Positions 1 to 13,930 of a stretch of 64,000 nucleotides of DNA are shown here, in pieces. The notes beneath the pieces were generated by a model. It saw only the letters and a list, made by a program, of their open reading frames with translations, had not been told where the DNA came from and did not search any database. The translations under genes and the position numbers were made by a program. Origin of the DNA: Acidobacteriota bacterium (GTDB taxonomy: Bacteria; Acidobacteriota; Thermoanaerobaculia; Multivoradales; Multivoraceae). Location of the stretch: NCBI GenBank assembly GCA_003388555.1, contig QQVD01000050.1, positions 204,673 through 268,672 on the forward strand. Direction: 5' to 3'. Numbering within the stretch: the stretch's first letter is position 1; every line of letters begins with the position of its first letter.

Positions 1-1258
1 GCAGGGTGCCGAGTGAGGCCCGGTAGCGTGGGTTGTGCGTCCGCAGGCCTTCGAGCTCGGCGTGGAGGCGCCGCCAGCGCATTCGCCTGAGGTAGTAGGG
101 GAGCGCGTCCAGGCCGTGCCCCACCACACTGTCGCCGTCGACCCCGGTGAGCAGCGTGCGACAGCCCGCCTCGCTCGCCGCCGCGTACAGGGCGGCGTTG
201 ATGTACGCGTTGGGGCTGACGTTGGGGGCTTCGAGCGCCCTTTCGATCTCGTCCCGGTGCGAGAGTGGGCTCAGCTCGTCGGCCCGCACCGTGACCGCCG
301 CGATGCCGGCCTTTCGCACGACCGCGTCGACGTAGCGCCGTTCGTCCGTCGACGGGGCATGCTTGGCGATCGACGGGAAGGTCGCCGAGACGGCGAGCAG
401 GCGCTCCGGATCGACGGCGATCTGCGCGGCGGCGATGGTCACGGCCGACGAGTCGAGACCGCCGCTGAGGCCCGTCGCGATCGGGAACGACGAGCGCATC
501 CGGCAGCGCACCGCTTCGAGGAAGAGCTCACGGAAGCCCTGCTCGGCGTCGTCGTCGGTGAGGCGCAGGTCCTTGGTTTCGGGTCGCCAGAAGGTGCGCT
601 GTCGCACTTTGCCCCGCGGGTCGACCCGGAGCACCGCGCCGGCCGGAAGGCGACGGACTCCGCGTACCGGAGTGCGGTCGAGATCCTCGACCAGGAGTGC
701 CCACTGCAGCGCGCCGGCGATCCAGTGTTCGTCGATCTCGCGAGGGACCTCGGGTGTCGCCAGGAGGCACGACAGACGCGATGCCACCGCGAAGCTGTCG
801 CCGTGCGACAACCAGTAGGCCTGTCGCGCGCCCATCGGGTCGCGCGCGACGACGAGGTCGCCGGTGCGCGGATCCCAGGCGGCGAAGACGAAGTCGCCGA
901 TCAGCCGCTCGACGCAGGCGGCGCCCCAGCGCTCGAAGCTCCGCGCGATGATCTCGCAGTCGCTCGCACCGCGGGAGTCCTCGTCGAGCGGCAGTTGATC
1001 GATGAGCTCCGAGCGGTTGTCGATCCGGGCGTCGGCGACCACGACCACGCCCGATCCCTCGAGGCGGATCGGCTGCCGCTCGCCGACCGACTCCGGCTGG
1101 TTCTCGAAGACCTTCGCCCCGAGCCCGATCCCTTCCTGGCAGAAGCCGTCGGAGCCTCCGCCCGGAAGCTCGGCGAGCGTCTCGGCCATCGAACGCAGGC
1201 CACGCTCGATCTCGTGCAAGGGCCGGTGGGGGCTCAGCCAGGCGTAGAGGAAGGACAC
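1..1258 (-). CDS. Asparagine synthetase-like (lasso cyclase-like) amide synthetase; 3' end truncated by left window edge
   Basis: My reverse-strand translation from GTG at 1258 reads (V/M)SFLYAWLSPHRPLHEIERG..., with GATase-like REIDEHWIAGALQ and an SGGLDSSA PP-loop in the synthetase domain. Residue 2 is Ser, not the catalytic Cys of Gln-dependent AsnB. Start lies directly next to the stop of the upstream gene. Confidence 0.85.
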   Translation of the reverse strand, partial: MSFLYAWLSPHRPLHEIERGLRSMAETLAELPGGGSDGFCQEGIGLGAKVFENQPESVGERQPIRLEGSGVVVVADARIDNRSELIDQLPLDEDSRGASDCEIIARSFERWGAACVERLIGDFVFAAWDPRTGDLVVARDPMGARQAYWLSHGDSFAVASRLSCLLATPEVPREIDEHWIAGALQWALLVEDLDRTPVRGVRRLPAGAVLRVDPRGKVRQRTFWRPETKDLRLTDDDAEQGFRELFLEAVRCRMRSSFPIATGLSGGLDSSAVTIAAAQIAVDPERLLAVSATFPSIAKHAPSTDERRYVDAVVRKAGIAAVTVRADELSPLSHRDEIERALEAPNVSPNAYINAALYAAASEAGCRTLLTGVDGDSVVGHGLDALPYYLRRMRWRRLHAELEGLRTHNPRYRASLGTL

Positions 1259-1259
1259 C

Positions 1260-2435
1260 TCAGGTCTCGAGCTCTCTGGTGGTCTCCCTGCTCGAACGCT
1301 TCGGCCACAGGGGCGAAGCGGCGAGGCGCAGAAGGCGCACCGGATAGTAGAGGGCGAACAGGCTGTCCGGCAGGTCGACGAGGGCGAAGTCGCTCGGCGT
1401 CGGGCTGACGATCAGATCGAGGCCCCGGCGCAGGCGCAGGCGCTGCCGGTCGAGGCTCCACAGGAAGAGCCGCGCCTTGTCACGGTCGGCGGCCCACGGT
1501 CCGCTGGCGCGGTCGTGTGAGCGACGGATCATGTCGACGCGCAGCTCGAGGGCCGCGTCGCGGCCCGGGCGGGAGAACGCCGACGGGAACGGTGCCGCGA
1601 AGAGCTCGGCGGCGAGAGTCAGGGCCAGACGGCACATCCGCACCATCCCCGCGCGCTCCGCCCAGGCGGACAGCTCGTCCCAGCGCAGCTCGGCGACTCG
1701 CTGCAGGGTCGCGATGTCGTGGATCCAGAGGAGGCGCTGCCAGCGGTGTTTGGTGCCGTGCACCACCAACGCCAGGAAGAGGTCCTCGGAGGAGAGCACC
1801 TGGACGCTCCTGCCACCGAGGCGGACGGCGGTGGTCCGGTGCGCCATGTCGAGGAACGGGGGCGTCAGGCCGAGCCCCGGCAGCGAGACCTCCCAGTGCA
1901 GATCGACGAACGGGCCGGCGGGGCTCCTGGCCAGCGTCGCCTTGTACGAGCTCTGGCGCAGATGGCGCTCGCGTCGCGGACTGCCCTCGGGCTTCTGCAG
2001 GTAGCCGATCGTCGCCAGTGCCCTGAGCGCGACGTCGACCTGGTCCCGGCGCACGATGACGTCGACGTCGGAGTACGGCCGGAGAGCGATCTCTCCGTGC
2101 AGCCGCTGCGACAGGCTCGGTCCCTTGAAGGGAACGGCGCGCACGTCCTCCGCCTCCAGGGTCGAGAGCACGCGGAGGAGCTCCTTGAGCAGGTGCAGGC
2201 CGGATCTGGCGTACTGGCCCACCAGAGGCGCGAGGCCGTCTCGCAGCGCCTCGCTCTCGGCACCGCCCGCTGTGCTCTCTCGAAGGCGCTCGGCCGCCAG
2301 CGCCGCGAGGCCATGGCGGTGGGCGAGGCGCACGAAGCGTTCGCCATCGAGACCGGCGGGTCGCGGCCGGGACGGCTCGGCGAGCAGCGAGAGGAGGGCC
2401 TCGAGCTCGCGGCTTGGTGCCGACTCCTGGCTCAT
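1260..2435 (-). CDS. Nucleotidyltransferase family protein (PF14907-like)
   Basis: ORF MSQESAPSRELEALLSLL...VPFKGPSLSQRLHGEIALRPYSDVDVIVRRDQVDVA...; PFKGxxL and R.YSDVDVIV motifs; 4-bp overlap with the upstream gene. Confidence 0.85.
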   Translation of the reverse strand: MSQESAPSRELEALLSLLAEPSRPRPAGLDGERFVRLAHRHGLAALAAERLRESTAGGAESEALRDGLAPLVGQYARSGLHLLKELLRVLSTLEAEDVRAVPFKGPSLSQRLHGEIALRPYSDVDVIVRRDQVDVALRALATIGYLQKPEGSPRRERHLRQSSYKATLARSPAGPFVDLHWEVSLPGLGLTPPFLDMAHRTTAVRLGGRSVQVLSSEDLFLALVVHGTKHRWQRLLWIHDIATLQRVAELRWDELSAWAERAGMVRMCRLALTLAAELFAAPFPSAFSRPGRDAALELRVDMIRRSHDRASGPWAADRDKARLFLWSLDRQRLRLRRGLDLIVSPTPSDFALVDLPDSLFALYYPVRLLRLAASPLWPKRSSRETTRELET

Positions 2436-3343
2436 GATCCGAGATCGCCTTCCACTCGCCGCGCGACGTCGGTCAACCGGCCCAGCTGGCGCGGCACGAA
2501 GACCCTCCTGCAATCGACCGCGCCAGCGATACGCCCCGCGAGGTCGAGGATGTTGTCGAGCCCGACGAGGCGGCGTCCGATGCTGGGCAGTCCGAAGTAG
2601 TTGCTGACCAGCAGGGTGCAGGCGGCGCTCGGCGAGACCTCCTCGATCGAGCAGTCCGAGCCCTCGGCCGGCGAAAGGAAGTAGATGCGCGCCATCGGGA
2701 GGGCGGCTTCGACGAAGCGCGAGGCCAGCCGCAGGACGCGCTCCTCGGAGCCGGGGAAGGGACGCACGGAATCGAACGGCGGGGAAGTCGCTGCGACGAC
2801 CTCGCGGCTGACCTTGAGCTCGGGATGGGCCGGCTCGACGACCGGCTGGTCGGGCCTCGAGATCGCCGCTATGTCGTCGGCGACGAAGTGATGGCCGGCG
2901 GCGACGAGAGCGGCGGCGAGGCTCGACTTGCCGGCAGTCGAGCCGCCGACGAACGCTGCCGCGCGACCCTCGATCGCGACCGCGCTCGCGTGCAGCGGGA
3001 AGCCGCCGCGCAGGCTCACCAGGAAGGGGAGCACGCGGCCGATCAGGTAGGGCTCGAGCAGAGGATGCCCGGGAGCGACCTGGTGGCGGATCAGGATGCG
3101 CGAGAGCGTGGCCTCGAAGCAGGCCAGACCGCGGACCTCGAAGCGGCCACCCTCGGGGCTCAGGTCCGTCCAGGCGACATGGGCAGACGCGCTCGCGGCG
3201 GTTCCGACCGCGGCGGCGAGCGGCTCGAGCTCGACCCGCACGTCGACCGGGCCGGTGTGCTCCACCGGAGCGAGCAGCGGCATGGTGCTGTCGATGCCCA
3301 GTCCGAAGGCCTTGTAGCCCCTGTGGCGTCTCTCGGCGTGCAC
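2432..3343 (-). CDS. HPr kinase/phosphorylase-like protein
   Basis: P-loop in HASAVAIEGRAAAFVGGSTAGKSSLAAALVAAGHHFVADDI. GTG start at 3343, 2 bp after the stop of the ABC transporter. Confidence 0.82.
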   Translation of the reverse strand: MHAERRHRGYKAFGLGIDSTMPLLAPVEHTGPVDVRVELEPLAAAVGTAASASAHVAWTDLSPEGGRFEVRGLACFEATLSRILIRHQVAPGHPLLEPYLIGRVLPFLVSLRGGFPLHASAVAIEGRAAAFVGGSTAGKSSLAAALVAAGHHFVADDIAAISRPDQPVVEPAHPELKVSREVVAATSPPFDSVRPFPGSEERVLRLASRFVEAALPMARIYFLSPAEGSDCSIEEVSPSAACTLLVSNYFGLPSIGRRLVGLDNILDLAGRIAGAVDCRRVFVPRQLGRLTDVARRVEGDLGS

Positions 3344-3345
3344 GT

Positions 3346-5175
3346 TCAGGTGTCGCTGCCGTGCGCAGCCGTCTGTCTCGTGCCGGCTGCCGGCACGGTG
3401 AGGTGGCCGACATCGTCCGTGCACCCGCCGAGGCGGCCGAGGTCGAGCCGCTTCACCGAGGTGGCCAGCCCGATCGGCGCCGGGCGATGGGTGACGATCA
3501 ACGCGGTGGCCTCGGCGAGGTGGTCCCGCATGCGGCGCAGCCATTCCTGCTCGCTCCACGGGTCCATCGAGCTGGTGGGCTCGTCGAGGAGGAGGAGGGG
3601 CGCCTGGCGGTAGAAGGCCCTGGCCAGTGAGATGCGCTGCCACTGACCTCCGCTGAGCTGATGACCTCCCACGTAGGTGCGCCCGAGCTCGGTGCGGTAT
3701 CCGTCGGGCAGGGCGCGCAGGAACTCGTCGGCTCCCGAGGCCTCGGCGGCCCTGTGGACGAGCGCCTCGTCGGGCCCGCGGACGAGATCGCCCAGCCCGA
3801 CGTTCTCGGCGGCCGTGCCGTGGAAGAGGAGTGGCGTCTGGAAGAGCACCGCCAGCCGCCGGCGATAGTCCTCCAGATCGAGCTCGCGCAGGTCGACACC
3901 GTCGATCGTGATCCGCCCTTCGCTCGGGTCGTAGAGGCGGCAGAGGAGCTTGAGCAGGGTGGTCTTGCCGGCTCCGTTGGGGCCGACGAGGGCGGTCACC
4001 GAGCCCTTGGGCAGCTCGAGGTCGATGTTGCGCAGCACGAGGGCTTCGGTGCCGGGGTAGCGGAAGCTGACGTTCTCGAAGCGGATGGCGTCCTCGAAGC
4101 GGAAGGGCTTGGGGTCGGCGGAGCGGGTGACCACGGAAGGCTCGAGATCGAGGAACGAGGTGAGGTTGCCGACGAAGAGCAGGTCGACGTAGAGGCGGCG
4201 CAGGCGGGCGACGAGCTGCCTGACGCTGCTCTGGCCGCGCTCGAAGGCCTGGTAGAAGAGCGCCAGGTCGCCGAGGGTGAGGGCGCCGGCGAGGAATCGG
4301 ATGAGGGCGAAGAGGCAGGCGACGCCGAGACCGAGCAGCCCGAACAGCCCGAGCAGCAGCTGCCCCCACGCCTCCTTGCGGCCGAGGGCGAAGCGCTCGT
4401 CGCGGATCGTGCGGCGGATCGACTGGTAGGCGTCGCGGAAGGCGTCGCCGAGATCGAAGACGCGGATCTCGGCGGCGCTCTCCTCGGCGGTCAGCAGGTA
4501 GTCGTAGTAGAAGGCGCGCCGCTCCTGCGGCGTGATGCGGGCTGCCCACCGATGCCGGCGCACGCTCTCGTGCAGCAGCAGGAAGACGCCGGGCACCGCG
4601 GTGACCAGCAGCAGCAGCGGGATCCACAGGGTGTAGCTGGCGAGCAGCAGCACCATCGACAGCGCGGTGACACCGGCCTGCAGCAAAGTGGCGCACGAGT
4701 CGAGCATCTGCGCCGGCCGCACCCGCGCGTCCTCCTTGGCGCGGTGCAGCTGGTCGTAGTAGGCGGGTGTCTCGTAGAAGGAGAGATCGGCCTGCACCGC
4801 CTTCTCGTGCACCAGGCCGGCGAGATGGTCGCGCACGATCTCGCCCTGGGTCTCGCCGACCCACCCCGAGACCGACTTGAGCAGCTCGGCCAGCCCGATC
4901 AGGGCGACCAGCGCGCCGCCGAGCACTAGCAGATCGCGGCGCGCCAGCAGCTCGGCGCCCGAGAGCCCTCCCGAAGCGAGCAGATCGATCAGCGAGCGGG
5001 TTGCCAGCACGATGCCGAGGGGGATCGCGCCCTGCAGCACGACGAGCGCCACACGCAGCGTGGTCCAGCCTGGGGAGGCGCGGTAGACGAGGCCGAGGAT
5101 GCGCGGCACGAGAGGCAGCTGGCTCAACGCGTAGCGCAGGCCGCGAGAATGCCGATCGCCTTCCGCCTGACTCAC
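3346..5175 (-). CDS. ABC transporter, fused permease/ATP-binding protein
   Basis: 609 aa: N-terminal TM domain, Walker A GPNGAGKTTLL, signature LSGGQWQRISLARAF, Walker B LLLLDEPTSSMD. Confidence 0.92.
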   Translation of the reverse strand: MSQAEGDRHSRGLRYALSQLPLVPRILGLVYRASPGWTTLRVALVVLQGAIPLGIVLATRSLIDLLASGGLSGAELLARRDLLVLGGALVALIGLAELLKSVSGWVGETQGEIVRDHLAGLVHEKAVQADLSFYETPAYYDQLHRAKEDARVRPAQMLDSCATLLQAGVTALSMVLLLASYTLWIPLLLLVTAVPGVFLLLHESVRRHRWAARITPQERRAFYYDYLLTAEESAAEIRVFDLGDAFRDAYQSIRRTIRDERFALGRKEAWGQLLLGLFGLLGLGVACLFALIRFLAGALTLGDLALFYQAFERGQSSVRQLVARLRRLYVDLLFVGNLTSFLDLEPSVVTRSADPKPFRFEDAIRFENVSFRYPGTEALVLRNIDLELPKGSVTALVGPNGAGKTTLLKLLCRLYDPSEGRITIDGVDLRELDLEDYRRRLAVLFQTPLLFHGTAAENVGLGDLVRGPDEALVHRAAEASGADEFLRALPDGYRTELGRTYVGGHQLSGGQWQRISLARAFYRQAPLLLLDEPTSSMDPWSEQEWLRRMRDHLAEATALIVTHRPAPIGLATSVKRLDLGRLGGCTDDVGHLTVPAAGTRQTAAHGSDT

Positions 5176-6353
5176 GCCGCCACCAGGCGTCGGTAGATCT
5201 GGTCGAGCTCGGTGGTCATGCGCTCGACGCTGTGGTCCGCTCGCACCCGCTGTTGCCCGAGGCTCGCCAGCACGGCGCTCCGCTCCGGGTGATCGAGACG
5301 TTCGAGCACCCGCGCGGCGAGTGCGTCGGCGTCACCGAGCGGGCAAAGGCTCTCCGCGAGATCCCCTCGCAGCACCTGGGGGATGCCGCCGGCCGCGGTC
5401 GCCACCACCGGTACCCCGGCCGCCATCGCCTCGAGCAGCGCCAGAGGCAGCCCCTCGAAGTCGGAGGAGATCAGGAAGACGTCCATCAGCGCCAGGTGGC
5501 CGGTGATGTCGGGCTGCAGCCCCGGCAAGCGCAGCGCCGACTCGAGGCCCAGCTGCCGCGCCGTGGCCTCGACTTCCGACAGCAACGGGCCGTCGCCGAC
5601 CAGCAGGAAGCGGGTCTGCGGGCGCCGTCGGTGGATATGGGCCGCCGCCTCGAGCCAGAGGTCGAGCCGCTTCTGCCGGCGGAAGACGCAGGCGGCGCCG
5701 ATCACCGGCGCCCCCTCTTCGAGCCCGAGCTCGGCCCGCAGCTCGGCGCTCGCCGTGGCGGCGGCGAAGCGCTCGACGTCGATGCCGTTGAGCACCACCT
5801 GCACCGGCACCCGGTCGCCCAGGTGCTGGCGGATCGATGCGGCCACCTCTTCGGAGACGGCGACCACCTGGTCCTGGAGTCCCCAGGTGGTGCGGCTGAG
5901 CGCGCGGGTGGCGCGGCGGTAGCGCGGCTGCAGGTTGTGCTCGGTGTAGACGAGCGGCACTCCCAGTCCACGCGCGGCGAGGCGGCCGGCGACGCCGGCC
6001 AGCGGCAGGTGGCAGTGCAGCAGGTCGAGGCCGCTGGCCCGGATCCATCGCCGCACGCGGCCGGCCCGCAGCAGCAGGCCGAGGCTCGAGCGCGCCCCGA
6101 GGCACTGCACCGGCGCGCCGCTGGCGGCGATCTCAGCCACGAGAGCGTCCTTCCAGGGTAGGAAGTAGGCCACCGCGCAGGAGTGTCCGAGCTCCCGCCC
6201 GGCACGGATCTGCGGCGCCAGCAGCCCCTCGGCGCCGCCCCGACCGAGGCTCTTGATCAGGTGGCCGACGCGCAGGGTCGTCGCCGCGCGCTGCGTCGGC
6301 GATGCGGAGCGTGGCTCGTTCCCGGGCGAGAGGGTGGAGACGAGGGCGGTCAT
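5172..6353 (-). CDS. Glycosyltransferase family 4 (GT4)
   Basis: MTALVSTLSPGNEP...LRVGHLIKSLGRGGAEGLLAPQI...; C-terminal FLISSDFEGLPLALLEAMAAGVPVVAT typical of GT4. 4-bp overlap with the ABC gene. Confidence 0.9.
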   Translation of the reverse strand: MTALVSTLSPGNEPRSASPTQRAATTLRVGHLIKSLGRGGAEGLLAPQIRAGRELGHSCAVAYFLPWKDALVAEIAASGAPVQCLGARSSLGLLLRAGRVRRWIRASGLDLLHCHLPLAGVAGRLAARGLGVPLVYTEHNLQPRYRRATRALSRTTWGLQDQVVAVSEEVAASIRQHLGDRVPVQVVLNGIDVERFAAATASAELRAELGLEEGAPVIGAACVFRRQKRLDLWLEAAAHIHRRRPQTRFLLVGDGPLLSEVEATARQLGLESALRLPGLQPDITGHLALMDVFLISSDFEGLPLALLEAMAAGVPVVATAAGGIPQVLRGDLAESLCPLGDADALAARVLERLDHPERSAVLASLGQQRVRADHSVERMTTELDQIYRRLVAA

Positions 6354-6441
6354 GCGAAGGTGTGGGTCGCGGGTTGCGGCGGCGGAGCACCAGCGGGCCC
6401 CCGCCGATCGCACGATTTCTGTCGGTGGGTTGGCGATGAAG

Positions 6442-7635
6442 CTAGCAGCTCGGGGCCTTTGACGGACCCGCCAGCGTGTCTCGGCAGAAGCGGGCCACGG
6501 CCTCCTGCACCCGCCGTCTGTCGTAGCGCTGACGGATCGAGCTCTGCAGCAGCGCGCCGCGATCGAGCCGGTCCTGCGGCGACATCGCCTGCTCGAGCGC
6601 TGCGCCGAGACCTGCAGGGTCGCGGGCCGCGAAGACGAAACCGTGCCGGTCGTCGCCGAGCGCCTCGCGGTTGCCGGCGATGTCGGAGCACGTCACGGGT
6701 CGGCCGAGGGCTCCCGCCTGCAGCACCACGTTGGGGACGCCTTCACGGTGGCTCGGGTGCACCAGGGCGTCGCAGGCGAGCAGGCAAGGCCGCACGTCGT
6801 CGACCCAGGGCAGCCTGTGCAGCCGGTCGAGGGTTTCGAGGCGCTCGAGAGTCGGCGGGTCGAGCGGATCGAGGCGGGGCTCGGTGTCGCCGACCAGCAG
6901 CAGGTGGCAGCGAGGGTCTCTCTGGCTCAGCGTCTCGAAGGCCGCGAGCAGCTCCGCGATGCCCTTGTCGGCGACCAGGCGGCCGAGGTAGAGGAAGAGA
7001 GTCGCGTCGGCGGGGACGCCGAGACGCGAGCGCCGGTCGGCACGCTCCTCCTCGTCACCGGCTCGGCGCGAGAAGCGCTCGAGGTCGACCCCGTTGGTCG
7101 AGCCGTCCGCCAGCACCAGGGCGTCCGTCGTGACGCCCAGCTCGGCCAACTTCTGCTGGAGGTGCCGGCTGTTGGCAAGATGATGCGTCGCCCAGCGCGC
7201 GGTCAGGCGCTCGGTGGCGAGCAGCAGCCGGCGGCGCGCTCCGGTGCTGCCCTCGAGCCTGAGCCCGCCCCAGCAGTGGATGCGCACCGGGACACCCAGC
7301 TGGCGCGCCGCGAGCATGCCGAGCAGACCGGCTTTGGGGGTCTGGGTGAAAACGACGTCGGGCCTGAAGCGCCGCATCACTCGGCGGAGGCGGAGCAGCG
7401 CCGGCAGGTCGCGCAGCGGCGCGATGCCGCGAGGGATCGCGACCGCGCGGTGGTCACAACCCTCGCGCTCGATCACCGCATCGCGCCGCGCTCCGTCGGC
7501 GCTGCACATCAGCACCTCGAATCCGGCCTCGCGCAGCGCCCGCATCTGGCCCTCGAGCAGCTTGTCGAGCGAGACCAGCGCGGTGGTGATGCGCAGCAGG
7601 CGCGGGCGCCGTTCCGAGGAGCTGGAGGTCTGCAT
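6442..7635 (-). CDS. Glycosyltransferase family 4 (GT4)
   Basis: MQTSSSSERRPRLLRITTALVSLDKLLEGQMRALREAGFEVLMCSADG...; C-terminal DALVHPSHREGVPNVVLQAGALGRPVTCSDIAGNREAL. Longer in-frame start exists at 7812. Confidence 0.88.
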   Translation of the reverse strand: MQTSSSSERRPRLLRITTALVSLDKLLEGQMRALREAGFEVLMCSADGARRDAVIEREGCDHRAVAIPRGIAPLRDLPALLRLRRVMRRFRPDVVFTQTPKAGLLGMLAARQLGVPVRIHCWGGLRLEGSTGARRRLLLATERLTARWATHHLANSRHLQQKLAELGVTTDALVLADGSTNGVDLERFSRRAGDEEERADRRSRLGVPADATLFLYLGRLVADKGIAELLAAFETLSQRDPRCHLLLVGDTEPRLDPLDPPTLERLETLDRLHRLPWVDDVRPCLLACDALVHPSHREGVPNVVLQAGALGRPVTCSDIAGNREALGDDRHGFVFAARDPAGLGAALEQAMSPQDRLDRGALLQSSIRQRYDRRRVQEAVARFCRDTLAGPSKAPSC

Positions 7636-7819
7636 GGGAGACGTCGACGATCGCGAGTCGGAGGTGAGCCCGGCGCGAGAGTCGAAGGCGAGATTCGGGC
7701 CGTCTCGATCGGCGGGAGTGCTGGAATCGGCCTCCGGGGGGACTGGACTACAGTCTATGGACCGAGGGGCCGAAGGCGACCTCGGGCGGCACCGATTCGG
7801 CAGGACCGACAACGACGCG

Positions 7820-8269
7820 ATGACGAGAGAAGCGCCACCCGCAGCCGCGGCACCGCCACGCAGGCCGGCGCGTCGCGCTGCCCTCCTGGTGCAGAGCGGC
7901 TTCCTGCTGCTCGTGGCGCAGGTGTCGCTGCGCCTGATCGGCTACCGCAGGACCCGCGGCCTGCTGGGGCGCCTGGGCTGGCTGACGCGCGGAGGCCGCT
8001 CGCGCGGGCTGCGTAGCATCTCGTGGGGCGTGCAGCGGGCGGCCCAGCTGCTGCCGAGCAGGCCGCAGTGCCTGCCTCAGGCGTTGGTGGCGGAGCGGCT
8101 CCTGGTGGCTGCGGGCCACTCCGCAGAGCTGGTGCTGGGCGTGCGCGATCCGGGGGATCGATTCGCCGCCCACGCGTGGGTGAGGAGCGGTGGTCAGCTC
8201 GTGGTCGGTGGCGACGTGTCGGGGTATCGGGTGCTGCAGCCGGTGGAAGGCGATCCTGGCTCGCGCTGA
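7820..8269 (+). CDS. Lasso peptide biosynthesis B2-like protein (Transglut_core3 fold)
   Basis: MTREAPPAAAAPPRR...WGVQRAAQLLPSRPQCLPQALVAERLLVAAGHSAELVLGVRDPGDRFAAHAWVRSGGQLVVGGD: Cys / His / Asp triad layout of the McjB-type protease. In-frame ATGs at 7634 and 7757 are alternative starts. Confidence 0.8.
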   Translation: MTREAPPAAAAPPRRPARRAALLVQSGFLLLVAQVSLRLIGYRRTRGLLGRLGWLTRGGRSRGLRSISWGVQRAAQLLPSRPQCLPQALVAERLLVAAGHSAELVLGVRDPGDRFAAHAWVRSGGQLVVGGDVSGYRVLQPVEGDPGSR

Positions 8270-10948: not shown

Positions 10949-12207
10949 GGGCGGGAACCGTTGGCGTCGTCGGAGGGCGGGCGCTGCGGCGGCGCGCTCA
11001 CCTCGCCGACCAGCGAGGCGCTGCTCGGAGGATTGATCACGCGCGCGTGCAGCGACTCGGTGACGGGGAGCGGACCGCGCGGTGCGTCACGGTACGGTGC
11101 CAGCAGGTGCAGCGGCTTCCACACCGGGCGCGACTGCAGGCCGGCGTCGGCGAGCGCCGCGAGCAGCGCATCGCGCAGCGCCATGTCGGGAGCGTCGAGC
11201 ACCAGGGCGACCAGCCACTCGTTGCGCCGCGTGCCGGCGGGCTCGGGGAAGACCGAGATCCCGTCGAGGCCTTCCAGGGCCGCCACGTAGCGGTTCGCCA
11301 GCGTGCGTTTGAGCTCGAGCAGCTGGTCGAGCACCTCGAGCTGGGCGCAGCCGAGGGCTGCGTTGGGGTTGGGCAGGCGGTAGTTGTAGCCCACCGCGTC
11401 GTGCTCGTACTCCCACGGGTGGGGGCGCTTGGCGGTGGTGCTGAGGTGCCGTGCGCGCCGCGCCAGCTCGGGGTCGTGGGTGATCAGGGCGCCGCCACCG
11501 CCGGTGCTGACGATCTTGTTGCCGTTGAAGCTGAGGATGCCGACCCGCCCGAAGAGGCCCGGGTGGCGACCGTCGCGCCACGAGCCGAGCGCCTCGGCCG
11601 AATCTTCGACGACCTCGAGACGCCAGCGCGCGGCGATCTCGACCAGCCTCTCGATCTGGCACGGATTGCCGAACACGTGCACCGGCACCAGCGCCTTGAG
11701 GCGTCGGCCGGTGACGCGGTTGCGGCAGCCGTCCCGCTGCAGCTCGGCGACTTCCTCGAGCCGGCGCTCCAGCGCCTCCGGGTCGAGCCCCAGCGTGCCC
11801 TCCTCGACGTCTACGAAGTGGGGCAGGGCGCCGGCGTGGCGGATGGCGTTGGCGGTGGCGACGAAGGAGATCGCCGGGCACAGCACCTCGTCGCCCGGCT
11901 CGACGCCGCCGACCTCGAGCGCCAGGTGCAGGGCGCAGGTGCCGTTGACGACGGCGACCGCGTCGGCGGCACCGGTGATCTCGGCGAGCTGCCGTTCGAA
12001 GCGCTCGACGAACGCGCCGGCGGTGGAGATCCAGTTGCTGTCGAGACACTCGCGGGTGTACTCCCAGGCGCGGGTGCCGCGCAGGCTGGGCTCGTGCAGC
12101 AGGGCTGGCCGCCGGTCCTCGGGCACCACCCCCTGCAGGCGCGAGATCACCTCGGCGACGAGGGCCGTTCCGGCCTCGGAGAGTGGCGGCGGTGCAACGG
12201 GGCTCAT
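10945..12207 (-). CDS. LegC/PglE-type DegT/DnrJ/EryC1/StrS family aminotransferase
   Basis: 420 aa with WEYTRECLDSNWISTAGAFVERFE, GTCALHLALEVGGV, VVEDSAEALGS, SFNGNKIVSTGGGG (PLP Lys). Confidence 0.92.
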   Translation of the reverse strand: MSPVAPPPLSEAGTALVAEVISRLQGVVPEDRRPALLHEPSLRGTRAWEYTRECLDSNWISTAGAFVERFERQLAEITGAADAVAVVNGTCALHLALEVGGVEPGDEVLCPAISFVATANAIRHAGALPHFVDVEEGTLGLDPEALERRLEEVAELQRDGCRNRVTGRRLKALVPVHVFGNPCQIERLVEIAARWRLEVVEDSAEALGSWRDGRHPGLFGRVGILSFNGNKIVSTGGGGALITHDPELARRARHLSTTAKRPHPWEYEHDAVGYNYRLPNPNAALGCAQLEVLDQLLELKRTLANRYVAALEGLDGISVFPEPAGTRRNEWLVALVLDAPDMALRDALLAALADAGLQSRPVWKPLHLLAPYRDAPRGPLPVTESLHARVINPPSSASLVGEVSAPPQRPPSDDANGSRP

Positions 12208-12268
12208 GGCGGTCGGGGCTGGCGATGTCGAGAGCGGTCGCGGGCCGGGCCGGCGGCAGCTCGGTCCC

Positions 12269-13930
12269 TCAGGGCGCCGCCGGCGACCTGCCCATGCGGA
12301 CGTCCGCGGCTGGGGCTTCGAACGTGAGGGTCTGGCGCACGACGCCCGGCAGCTCGTGGTCGGCGCACTCGCTCTGTACCTGGATCCGTTGCACGCCGCG
12401 CTCGAGCGCGTCGCAGAGCCGCTCGAGCAGGATGTAGTGCTCGCCGGGATCGTGTTCCCGGGCGCCGAACAGGTCGTCTCCGGGGTCCACGCTCGGCTCC
12501 AGCACCGCGATGAGCTGGCCGATCGTCTCGCCAGACACGCGGATCTCGCGCGTCCAGCGCACCAGGCGATCTCCCGGTTGGCGGCTCGGGCTCACCGGCG
12601 CGGTGAGGGGGATGCGCCGCACCGCGGCGAGGCCGTCGGCCAGCTCGAGCTCGAGATGGCGGATCGGCAGCTCTGCCACGGCGCGGCCCAGCTGGTGCTG
12701 GATGGCGCGCAGGCTGCCCGGGGCCGGGATCTCGGTCGACAGGCCCTTGAGCGAGCGGTGGAACTCGCGGTTGCGCCGCCGGGTCTGCGGCATGTGGGGC
12801 CCGAGCACCTCGCGGGCGTAGCGCGAGCGGTGCACGACGAGGAAGACGACGACTCCCGACAGCACCAACGCCAGGGTCGTCGACAGCCGGCCGTCGACGT
12901 TGGCGAGTAGCGCCAGCGCGGTGAACGCCGAGGCCAGCAGGTAGAGGGTGAGCACCGCGTCGCGGTGCGACAGGCCGAGGTGCATCAGCCGGTGGTGCAG
13001 GTGGCCACGGTCGGCGCTCATCAGCGGCAGCCCGCGCGCCCGCCGTCGCAGCACCACCAGCAGCGTGTCGAGGATCGGCACCCCGAGCGCCAGCAGAGGC
13101 ACCAGCACCGCCACCGCGGCCTGGTTCTTCTGGTTGCTGGCGATCGCCGCCGCGGCCAGCACCAGGCCGAGGAGGTGCGAGCCGCTGTCGCCCATGAAGA
13201 TCGAGGCGGGGTGGAAGTTGAACACCAGGAAGCCGAGCAGGGCGCCGACCAGGGTGACCATGGTGAGGATCAGCATCGCCTTGCCGGCGAGCACCGCGAC
13301 CACCAGCAGCGGCAGGATGGCGAACAGGGCGATGCCGGCGGCGAGCCCGTCGAGCCCGTCGATGAGGTTGAGCGCGTTGATCACGCCGACGAACCAGAGC
13401 ACGGTGATGGGCAGCGCCAGCCAGCCGAGCGGGATCGGGTCGCTGTCGAGCAGGCGGATGGCGTGCACCTGGTAGCCGCACACCCACATCACGCCGGCGA
13501 TGGCGATCTGGCCGCCCAGCTTGCTGAACGCCGTCGAGCCGCGCAGGTCGTCCCAGAAGCCGAGGCCCAGCGCCATCAGGCCGCCGAGGAAGAGGCCGAA
13601 GGTCTGCATTGCAGACTGGCGCAGCAGCGGCGCGAAGCTGTTCTGGGTCAGCAGCAGGCCGATCAGGGGCACGTAGAACGCGACGGCGATCGCCAGTCCG
13701 CCGACCCGCGGCGTCGGCCTGCCGTGCACCTTGCGCGAGGAGTGGGCGTTGTCGAGCCAGCCGCGTCGGATCGCCGTCGCCCTCACCCAGGGCGTTGCCA
13801 GCAGGGCGCAGAGGAAGGCCGTGCCGAGGGCGACCGTGTAGCTGATCGAGATGCTCAAGGCTCGAGCCCCTCGACGAGCGGAGTCAGGACGGACGAGAGC
13901 AAACGGGATCCCCGCGAAGTGGTTTGCCAT
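12269..13930 (-). CDS. WecA/MraY-family undecaprenyl-phosphate glycosyl-1-phosphate transferase with C-terminal extension
   Basis: Multi-TM PNPT with VHGRPTPRVGGLAI, NALNLIDGLDGLAAG, FNFHPASIFMGDSGSHLLG, followed by about 200 aa of soluble C-terminus. Exact start uncertain (13930 or 14002). Confidence 0.88.
   Translation of the reverse strand: MANHFAGIPFALVRPDSARRGARALSISISYTVALGTAFLCALLATPWVRATAIRRGWLDNAHSSRKVHGRPTPRVGGLAIAVAFYVPLIGLLLTQNSFAPLLRQSAMQTFGLFLGGLMALGLGFWDDLRGSTAFSKLGGQIAIAGVMWVCGYQVHAIRLLDSDPIPLGWLALPITVLWFVGVINALNLIDGLDGLAAGIALFAILPLLVVAVLAGKAMLILTMVTLVGALLGFLVFNFHPASIFMGDSGSHLLGLVLAAAAIASNQKNQAAVAVLVPLLALGVPILDTLLVVLRRRARGLPLMSADRGHLHHRLMHLGLSHRDAVLTLYLLASAFTALALLANVDGRLSTTLALVLSGVVVFLVVHRSRYAREVLGPHMPQTRRRNREFHRSLKGLSTEIPAPGSLRAIQHQLGRAVAELPIRHLELELADGLAAVRRIPLTAPVSPSRQPGDRLVRWTREIRVSGETIGQLIAVLEPSVDPGDDLFGAREHDPGEHYILLERLCDALERGVQRIQVQSECADHELPGVVRQTLTFEAPAADVRMGRSPAAP

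Follow-up and report, generated by a model that had tools for sequence, protein, structure and literature searches.

What defines a lasso peptide is its N-terminal ring. The definition includes Asp or Glu at core position 7–9 (PMC9266682), and the leader consensus is documented for positions -17 to -12 (PMC10368454). The closest described systems are those of paeninodin and pseudomycoidin, in which a kinase resembling HPr kinase (HPrK) and a nucleotidyltransferase accompany the lasso enzymes, and the 2026 paper on linear polyphosphorylated peptides (LPPs) calls paeninodins restricted to Bacillota (PMC13381572). In the present study, clusters with a WxxP leader, an HPrK-like kinase and a nucleotidyltransferase were seen in phyla other than Bacillota, which places this phosphate-type lasso machinery, described as a Bacillota specialty, in Acidobacteriota and Cyanobacteria. 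The copy analyzed here adjoins polysaccharide genes at the left end of a 64,000-nucleotide stretch (the window) in the 6.8 Mb genome of an Acidobacteriota bacterium. Window coordinates are contig C4 coordinates minus 204672, so that the window is C4:204673-268672 and negative values lie to its left. We consider it highly probable that this locus is a complete cluster for a lasso-type ribosomally synthesized and post-translationally modified peptide (RiPP), set inside a surface-sugar locus and equipped with a paeninodin-like tailoring cassette. The original prediction, made from the letters of the window, had proposed a lasso-like RiPP set with no precursor (A) or PqqD-like protein (B1) in view, possibly because both lay left of position 1; neither is inside the window, and both were found within 1.4 kb of it.

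The precursor has 62 residues and consists of the leader MHELKAWKPPKVEDLGTVVELTA and the core GVDVCATGMGLKAQGVNDDFNTVDAQWYCSSDAETPTPL. In the leader (WKPPKVEDLGTVVELTA) W-17, P-14, V-12, G-8 and T-2 all stand at lasso consensus spacing, and the score against the lasso leader model NF033521 is 18.0 bits (cut-off 19). Composition is coding-like, with G+C content at third codon positions (GC3) of 0.87 versus 0.46 at second positions (GC2), and GAGGGGG lies directly upstream of the second ATG; use of an in-frame ATG at -921 would extend the protein to 68 residues. The core starts GVDVCATGMG, with T7, G8 and M9, so the standard motif of Asp or Glu at 7–9 by which the original prediction expected a precursor to be known is absent, and this is not a standard lasso core. 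Its first part reads GVDVCATGMGL[KAQGVND]DF, in which K12-A-Q-G15-V-N-D18 (motif KAQGVND at -801..-781) has the features of a KxxGxxD group of precursors described below, namely Lys six before Asp, Gly midway, and no set spacing to the leader. The combination of a W/YxxP...G...T leader with KxxGxxD after it gave a single match across 80 kb of real sequence and no match in 60 triplet-shuffled copies; the leader pattern alone gave 0.47 matches per shuffled copy. It could be argued that the small open reading frame (ORF) is not a precursor and that the maturation enzymes have been co-opted into glycan metabolism with no peptide made, as a search of 60 relatives gave no close homologue of the ORF and the locus is rich in sugar genes. 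This we regard as very improbable, considering that leader and core motif both match in an ORF between B1 and the cyclase (C), that shuffled copies gave nothing, and that homologous clusters carry comparable precursors.

The best explanation for the locus as a whole, in which a lasso-type cluster makes a peptide closed between Lys12 and Asp18 that is then tailored and exported, is one to which we give, judging from sequence, slightly less than even confidence. The central step, that the cyclase joins Lys12 to Asp18, is the most likely of the readings considered but is proposed tentatively on the same basis, and it is possible, though put forward more tentatively still, that a widespread lasso-type branch in Bacteria and haloarchaea closes its ring via the lysine side chain rather than the N-terminus. 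Related loci were obtained by cyclase searches of 149 same-class and 396 same-phylum genomes and an alignment scan of 84,980 species. A single-protein scan of the genome and viral contigs gave no relatives, but the alignment scan did, and cyclase loci came from Acidobacteriota, Cyanobacteria, Chloroflexota, Rokubacteria, Rhodothermota, sulfate-reducing Desulfo- lineages, and archaea. Two types were prominent among their precursors. The first has mostly Y leaders and Asp at core position 8 or 9, while the second has mostly W leaders and K-x-x-G-x-x-D at a free distance from the leader, as in GSPQGTG[KNLGFGD]DI, QCTPPGCKP[KVRGLGD]DF, QSKL[KQPGSQD]DF, NKT[KNLGSSD]A, AGCDT[KVFGSED]GF, and the Lys-type precursors of L041/L044 (GSPQGTGKNLGFGDD...). 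In a quick tree, Lys-type systems occupy several cyclase branches, including that of the window and a haloarchaeal one.

The spacing of the pair was compared with within-core shuffles in 113 precursors less than 70% identical, 21 with W leaders and 92 with Y/F leaders. Lys six before Asp or Glu occurred in 18 of the 21 W-leader precursors (2.6 expected) and in 19 of the 92 others (5.0 expected), values reached in 0 of 2000 shuffles; spacings of 7 and 8 were mildly raised in the W set only. Among 162 residue-spacing combinations, Lys-6 ranked first and Gly-3 second in the W set, and in the Y/F set Gly-6, reflecting the ordinary ring with Gly3, ranked first and Lys-6 second. Removal of spurious frames left a curated, non-redundant set of 106 precursors, each next to a lasso-type cyclase (Acidobacteriota, Cyanobacteria, Chloroflexota, Rokubacteria, haloarchaea). 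In this set Lys to Asp at 6 occurred 36 times against 6.2 expected, and the highest count in 500 shuffles was 13. Arg showed no enrichment at this distance from Asp (4 versus 3.2 expected), and therefore it is lysine itself that is kept, not merely positive charge. The acid was Asp in 36 of the 37 motifs, with Gly midway in 24, and the Lys-acid pair was present in 22 of 30 precursors without Asp or Glu at 7–9 versus 15 of the other 76. The motif in L101 (K13-D19), in a core that also has an ordinary Asp or Glu at 9, is probably a chance match.

The distance from the N-terminus to Asp ranged from 7 to 18 and was not constant even for precursors that share a cyclase. Where one cyclase serves several precursors of a Lys family, the Asp position shifts (10/12 in L027, 13/15 in the cyanobacterial two-precursor locus L063, 7/8 in L124) and the Lys-Asp spacing is constant; ordinary families hold Asp at one position, either 9 or 8, apart from a single D10 case (L108). 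The Asp position also differed in 59 of 75 pairs of Lys-type cyclases at least 45% identical. Finally, in cyanobacterial, Rokubacteria and haloarchaeal genomes fetched after the motif had been defined, seven precursors fit, three with W leaders (K5-D11 twice, K8-D14), alongside one ordinary W-leader precursor (Asp8), and four with Y leaders from haloarchaea and Rokubacteria (K3-D9 three times, K4-D10). A side-chain-to-side-chain bond is proposed because the spacing of the pair is fixed while the distance to the N-terminus is free. By standard residue geometry, a ring from a Lys side chain to Asp(i+6) has 7 + 15 + 4 = 26 atoms, and the same arithmetic gives 25/26/28 atoms for ordinary rings from the N-terminus to Asp8/Glu8/Asp9. 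The Lys-Asp ring is within this ordinary range of 25–28 and could therefore be formed by the same cyclase fold, possibly encircling the tail.

An alternative explanation could be an ordinary lasso peptide with a hidden cut, in which the leader cut itself, or trimming after Thr, yields an ordinary N-terminal ring. The cut would fall either eight residues before Asp, giving a ring with a constant 9 residues of the form xxKxxGxxD (GLKAQGVND in the window's core), or immediately ahead of Lys, giving a 7-residue ring K1-D7. Known chemistry would be preserved, and the K3-D9, K2-D8 and K1-D7 members (L051b, L053, L054, L091, L124, L179, L213, L214) fit a normal Thr(-2) cut. Because these members fit both readings, this is the most serious rival, albeit an unlikely one. 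Thr(-2) is at a fixed distance from W/Y in nearly all precursors, while the second cut would have to shift by up to 11 residues with no conserved site visible at the required position; Asp shows no peak at position 9, the cluster genes that were examined yielded no additional peptidase, and the retention of Lys but not Arg would be left unexplained. A different possibility is a large N-terminal macrolactam, with the N-terminal amine joined to Asp at whatever distance it lies, here in an 18-residue ring. This would retain the N-terminal nucleophile and the Thr cut and accords with the conserved Asp, but ring size would have to range from 7 to 18 even for related cyclases, whereas a one-residue change in ring size sharply lowers production in studied lasso systems (PMC13352647), and the fixed Lys spacing would again have no explanation. 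We judge it improbable.

Closure between lysine and aspartate must be weighed against several observations. The shuffles ignore relatedness and shared ancestry of the precursors, a bias to which the one-cyclase loci, the cyclase pairs at or above 45% identity and the newly fetched genomes are less exposed. Thr(-2) and the leader peptidase (B2) are kept although a Lys-closed ring chemically needs no freed N-terminus, and the K3-D9, K2-D8 and K1-D7 precursors would permit an ordinary ring too. There are also exceptions, with R..G..D in L046, Asp10 without Lys in L108 and L207, and W leaders with ordinary Asp8/9 in L099, L154 and L209. For the window precursor, a search of 60 related genomes gave no close homologue, only chance matches within larger coding frames (L014, L015). 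The conserved K-G-D motif could, moreover, be a recognition signal, a possibility taken up below with the enzymes.

Several groups among the relatives deserve separate mention. Haloarchaeal clusters L078, L104, L120, L213 and L214 have cores such as NDKIGNGEDQYSGATSLTGSIV, with Lys six before Asp kept and, in most, a TGS-like tail pattern. In L124 (Anaerolineales) five tandem precursors at 11891-12886, which carry K1-D7 or K2-D8 along with a GGGSF-type tail, adjoin a single cyclase. Cyanobacterial loci including L067, L086 and L113 form a large family with an ordinary acceptor (VLGNPTRGDF-like, Asp9 with Gly3), often with two or three tandem precursors per cluster, long tails, and in several cases Cys. 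In Rhodothermus, a leader-bearing ORF at L077:2678 has a His/Gly-rich core (GWGHHWGHHHPHHGPCP) without an acidic residue until its far end, and adjoins a KxxGxxD precursor with Ile at leader position -2.

The cluster runs B1-A on the plus strand, then C, a nucleotidyltransferase (N), the kinase (K), an exporter (D) and two glycosyltransferases (GT) as C-N-K-D-GT-GT on the minus strand, converging on B1-A, and then B2 on the plus strand:

-1335..-982 (L010:6665-7018), plus strand: B1, PqqD-like; PF05402 83.9 bits, with PDB relatives 9x90 and TbiB1
-903..-715 (L010:7097-7285), plus strand: precursor A, 62 residues; leader model NF033521, GC3 and motif
-679..1258 (L010:7321-9258), of which 1..1258 inside the window, minus strand: C, AsnB-like macrolactam cyclase, 645 residues; PF00733 147.5 bits, NF033535
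1260..2435, minus strand: N, PF14907 nucleotidyltransferase (PsmN-like); 170.3 bits, KG and D-x-D conserved
2432..3343, minus strand: K, HPrK-like kinase with GTG start; PF07475 30.8 bits, TIGR00679 E 1.4e-7
3346..5175, minus strand: D, ATP-binding cassette (ABC) exporter with fused membrane and ATPase parts; PF00005 123.4 bits, MsbA-like
5172..6413, minus strand: family 4 glycosyltransferase (GT4), 4 bp overlap with D; PF13692/PF00534
6442..7812, minus strand: GT4 glycosyltransferase; PF13692/PF13579
7820..8269, plus strand: B2, transglutaminase-like leader peptidase, divergent from the GT gene; PF13471 77.4 bits, NF033537

All five genes named in the original prediction (C, N, K, D and B2) lie where it had placed them, and its reading of N as PF14907-like, of D as a fused ABC exporter and of the minus-strand genes as a coupled series was borne out, neighbors from C to GT overlapping or almost abutting. 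Around related cyclases most loci have B1, B2, K and D and many also N. Homologous clusters in other Acidobacteriota are arranged B1-B2-C-A-K-D-N in one run, and related cyclases of Cyanobacteria, Rokubacteria and haloarchaea are surrounded by these kinds of gene too. The best NCBIfam matches of B1 are lasso PqqD models and its nearest PDB chains are lasso RiPP recognition elements (RREs). B2 matches NF033537, ‘lasso peptide biosynthesis B2’, at 79.2 bits (cut-off 33). The Cys/His/Asp triad predicted for it was confirmed in part: Cys84 and His118 do not vary across 46 aligned sequences, but the Asp that occurs close by falls in a column without conservation. For K, described beforehand as HPr-kinase-like, Hpr_kinase_C (PF07475) gave E 2.5e-7 and 30.8 bits, slightly below the Pfam cut-off of 33.3 bits, and H118, K139, D156 and D157 are invariant in the 46 aligned sequences, corresponding to the His-Lys-Asp-Asp residues required in paeninodin-type kinases (PMC9266682); from its sequence, K is classed as a divergent HPrK-like kinase.

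The top NCBIfam match of C is the lasso cyclase model NF033535, at 402.7 bits and under the curated cut-off of 525, and against the exosortase/exopolysaccharide amidotransferase TIGR03108 it scored 150 bits (cut-off 816.9), outside that family. As expected from the window, Cys2 of working glutamine amidotransferases is absent, the full gene starting M-S-F, and the SGGLDS motif is intact. It is thinkable that KxxGxxD serves only recognition or folding, with C idle or, for example, amidating Asp, and that the pathway ends in a linear phosphorylated peptide resembling LPPs, which in Bacillota are made by a B1-HPrK-nucleotidyltransferase-exporter cassette without cyclase in capsule loci (PMC13381572); the sub-threshold score of C would be consistent with this. 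That a cyclase is present at these loci, with SGGxDS intact in the window copy, and that B2 rather than a signal peptidase is encoded make it a quite unlikely account. No solved lasso cyclase structure was found in the PDB by sequence search. Arg/Lys at cyclase position 515 came near the top as a discriminator of Lys-type from ordinary systems, but Arg also occurs in other acidobacterial cyclases, some of them adjoining ordinary precursors, so the signal probably follows ancestry. A second C-like gene in the genome (G000 C21:82359-84281, L026:8359-10281) was rejected as a partner cluster, having no adjoining B1, B2 or precursor. Its product is a lasso-cyclase-like AsnB protein 42–44% identical to C, isolated among protein-kinase/TPR genes, with SGDLDS in place of SGGLDS in the pyrophosphate loop.

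Under closure between Lys12 and Asp18, B1 would bind the WxxPxV leader and present the precursor, and B2 would cut after Thr-Ala to leave a 39-residue core starting GVDVCATGMGLKAQGVNDD. C would then close a macrolactam of 26 atoms, leaving 11 residues as an N-terminal extension and 21 as a C-terminal tail; this tail may thread the ring. A disulfide between Cys5 and Cys29 could link extension and tail, as suggested because the Cys pair flanks the motif in the window core and likewise in both precursors of L027, a relative of the same family. The core ends ...TPL and lacks the C-terminal Ser of the paeninodin type, with Ser30 and Ser31 its only serines; by analogy with PadeK and PsmK, K would be expected to phosphorylate one of these, and N, like PsmN, to add hexose to the phosphate as in pseudomycoidin (PMC9266682). 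D would presumably export the product. The analogy behind these kinase, hexose and exporter roles also draws on the LPPs (PMC13381572).

Polysaccharide genes flank the cluster on both sides (three GT4 in total, sugar transferase PF02397, Polysacc_synt_2, DegT aminotransferase, hexapeptide transferase, PF00953). The earlier suggestion that the two GT4 enzymes of the cluster act on the peptide found no evidence linking them to it rather than to this surrounding locus. At -3149..-1509 (L010:4851-6491, minus strand) a formyltransferase-like N-terminal half (weak match) is fused to a C-terminal GINT1_N half, a glucosamine inositolphosphorylceramide transferase domain. Elsewhere in the genome are two more PqqD-like domains, L011 (G000 C25:67709-67921) and L012 (G000 C16:28411-28605), one adjoining an HPrK-like gene and one inside a 682-residue open frame; these possibly belong to other RRE-dependent systems.

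If lysine does close the ring, a single family of cyclases produces two kinds of ring, the N-terminus is released to vary in sequence and to take part in disulfides, and many clusters judged broken by standard rules are functional. The product would be lasso-like with a free N-terminal extension plus a tail, and such products would have been overlooked by mining rules demanding an N-terminal ring with Asp or Glu at 7–9. No description of a Lys-closed lasso or of the KxxGxxD motif was found in the literature searched, which left bioRxiv and most subscription journals outside, so that an earlier description is possible.

Compared with known systems, the proposed Lys-to-Asp side-chain linkage is of the same chemical type as that of the graspetides (omega-ester/amide), but no ATP-grasp ligase is present among the cluster proteins examined, the window enzyme being AsnB-like and the leader lasso-type. 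The LPPs (PMC13381572) share the RRE, HPrK-like kinase, nucleotidyltransferase, MsbA-like exporter, polysaccharide context and Y/WxxP leader. The window cluster differs from them in having a cyclase and B2 protease and a leader without the FETxxS part, and none of the cluster genes examined resembles a signal peptidase, whereas LPPs have an SpI-like peptidase. The comparison with paeninodin and pseudomycoidin (PadeK, PsmK, PsmN), drawn already from the kinase and nucleotidyltransferase, holds, extending to discrete B1 and B2, an AsnB-like cyclase, a WxxP leader, an ABC exporter, an HPrK-like kinase with His-Lys-Asp-Asp, a PF14907-type nucleotidyltransferase and a frequent polysaccharide-locus setting; the window cluster, however, is not from Bacillota, and its core has KxxGxxD, neither Asp nor Glu at 7–9, and no terminal Ser. 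With standard class II lasso peptides it has in common the leader, B1, B2 and cyclase family, and in some cases the exporter, but not the standard acceptor position of the core. Because the defining Asp or Glu at 7–9 was tested for and is absent, the product is not classed here as a lasso peptide; the machinery that makes it is lasso-type.

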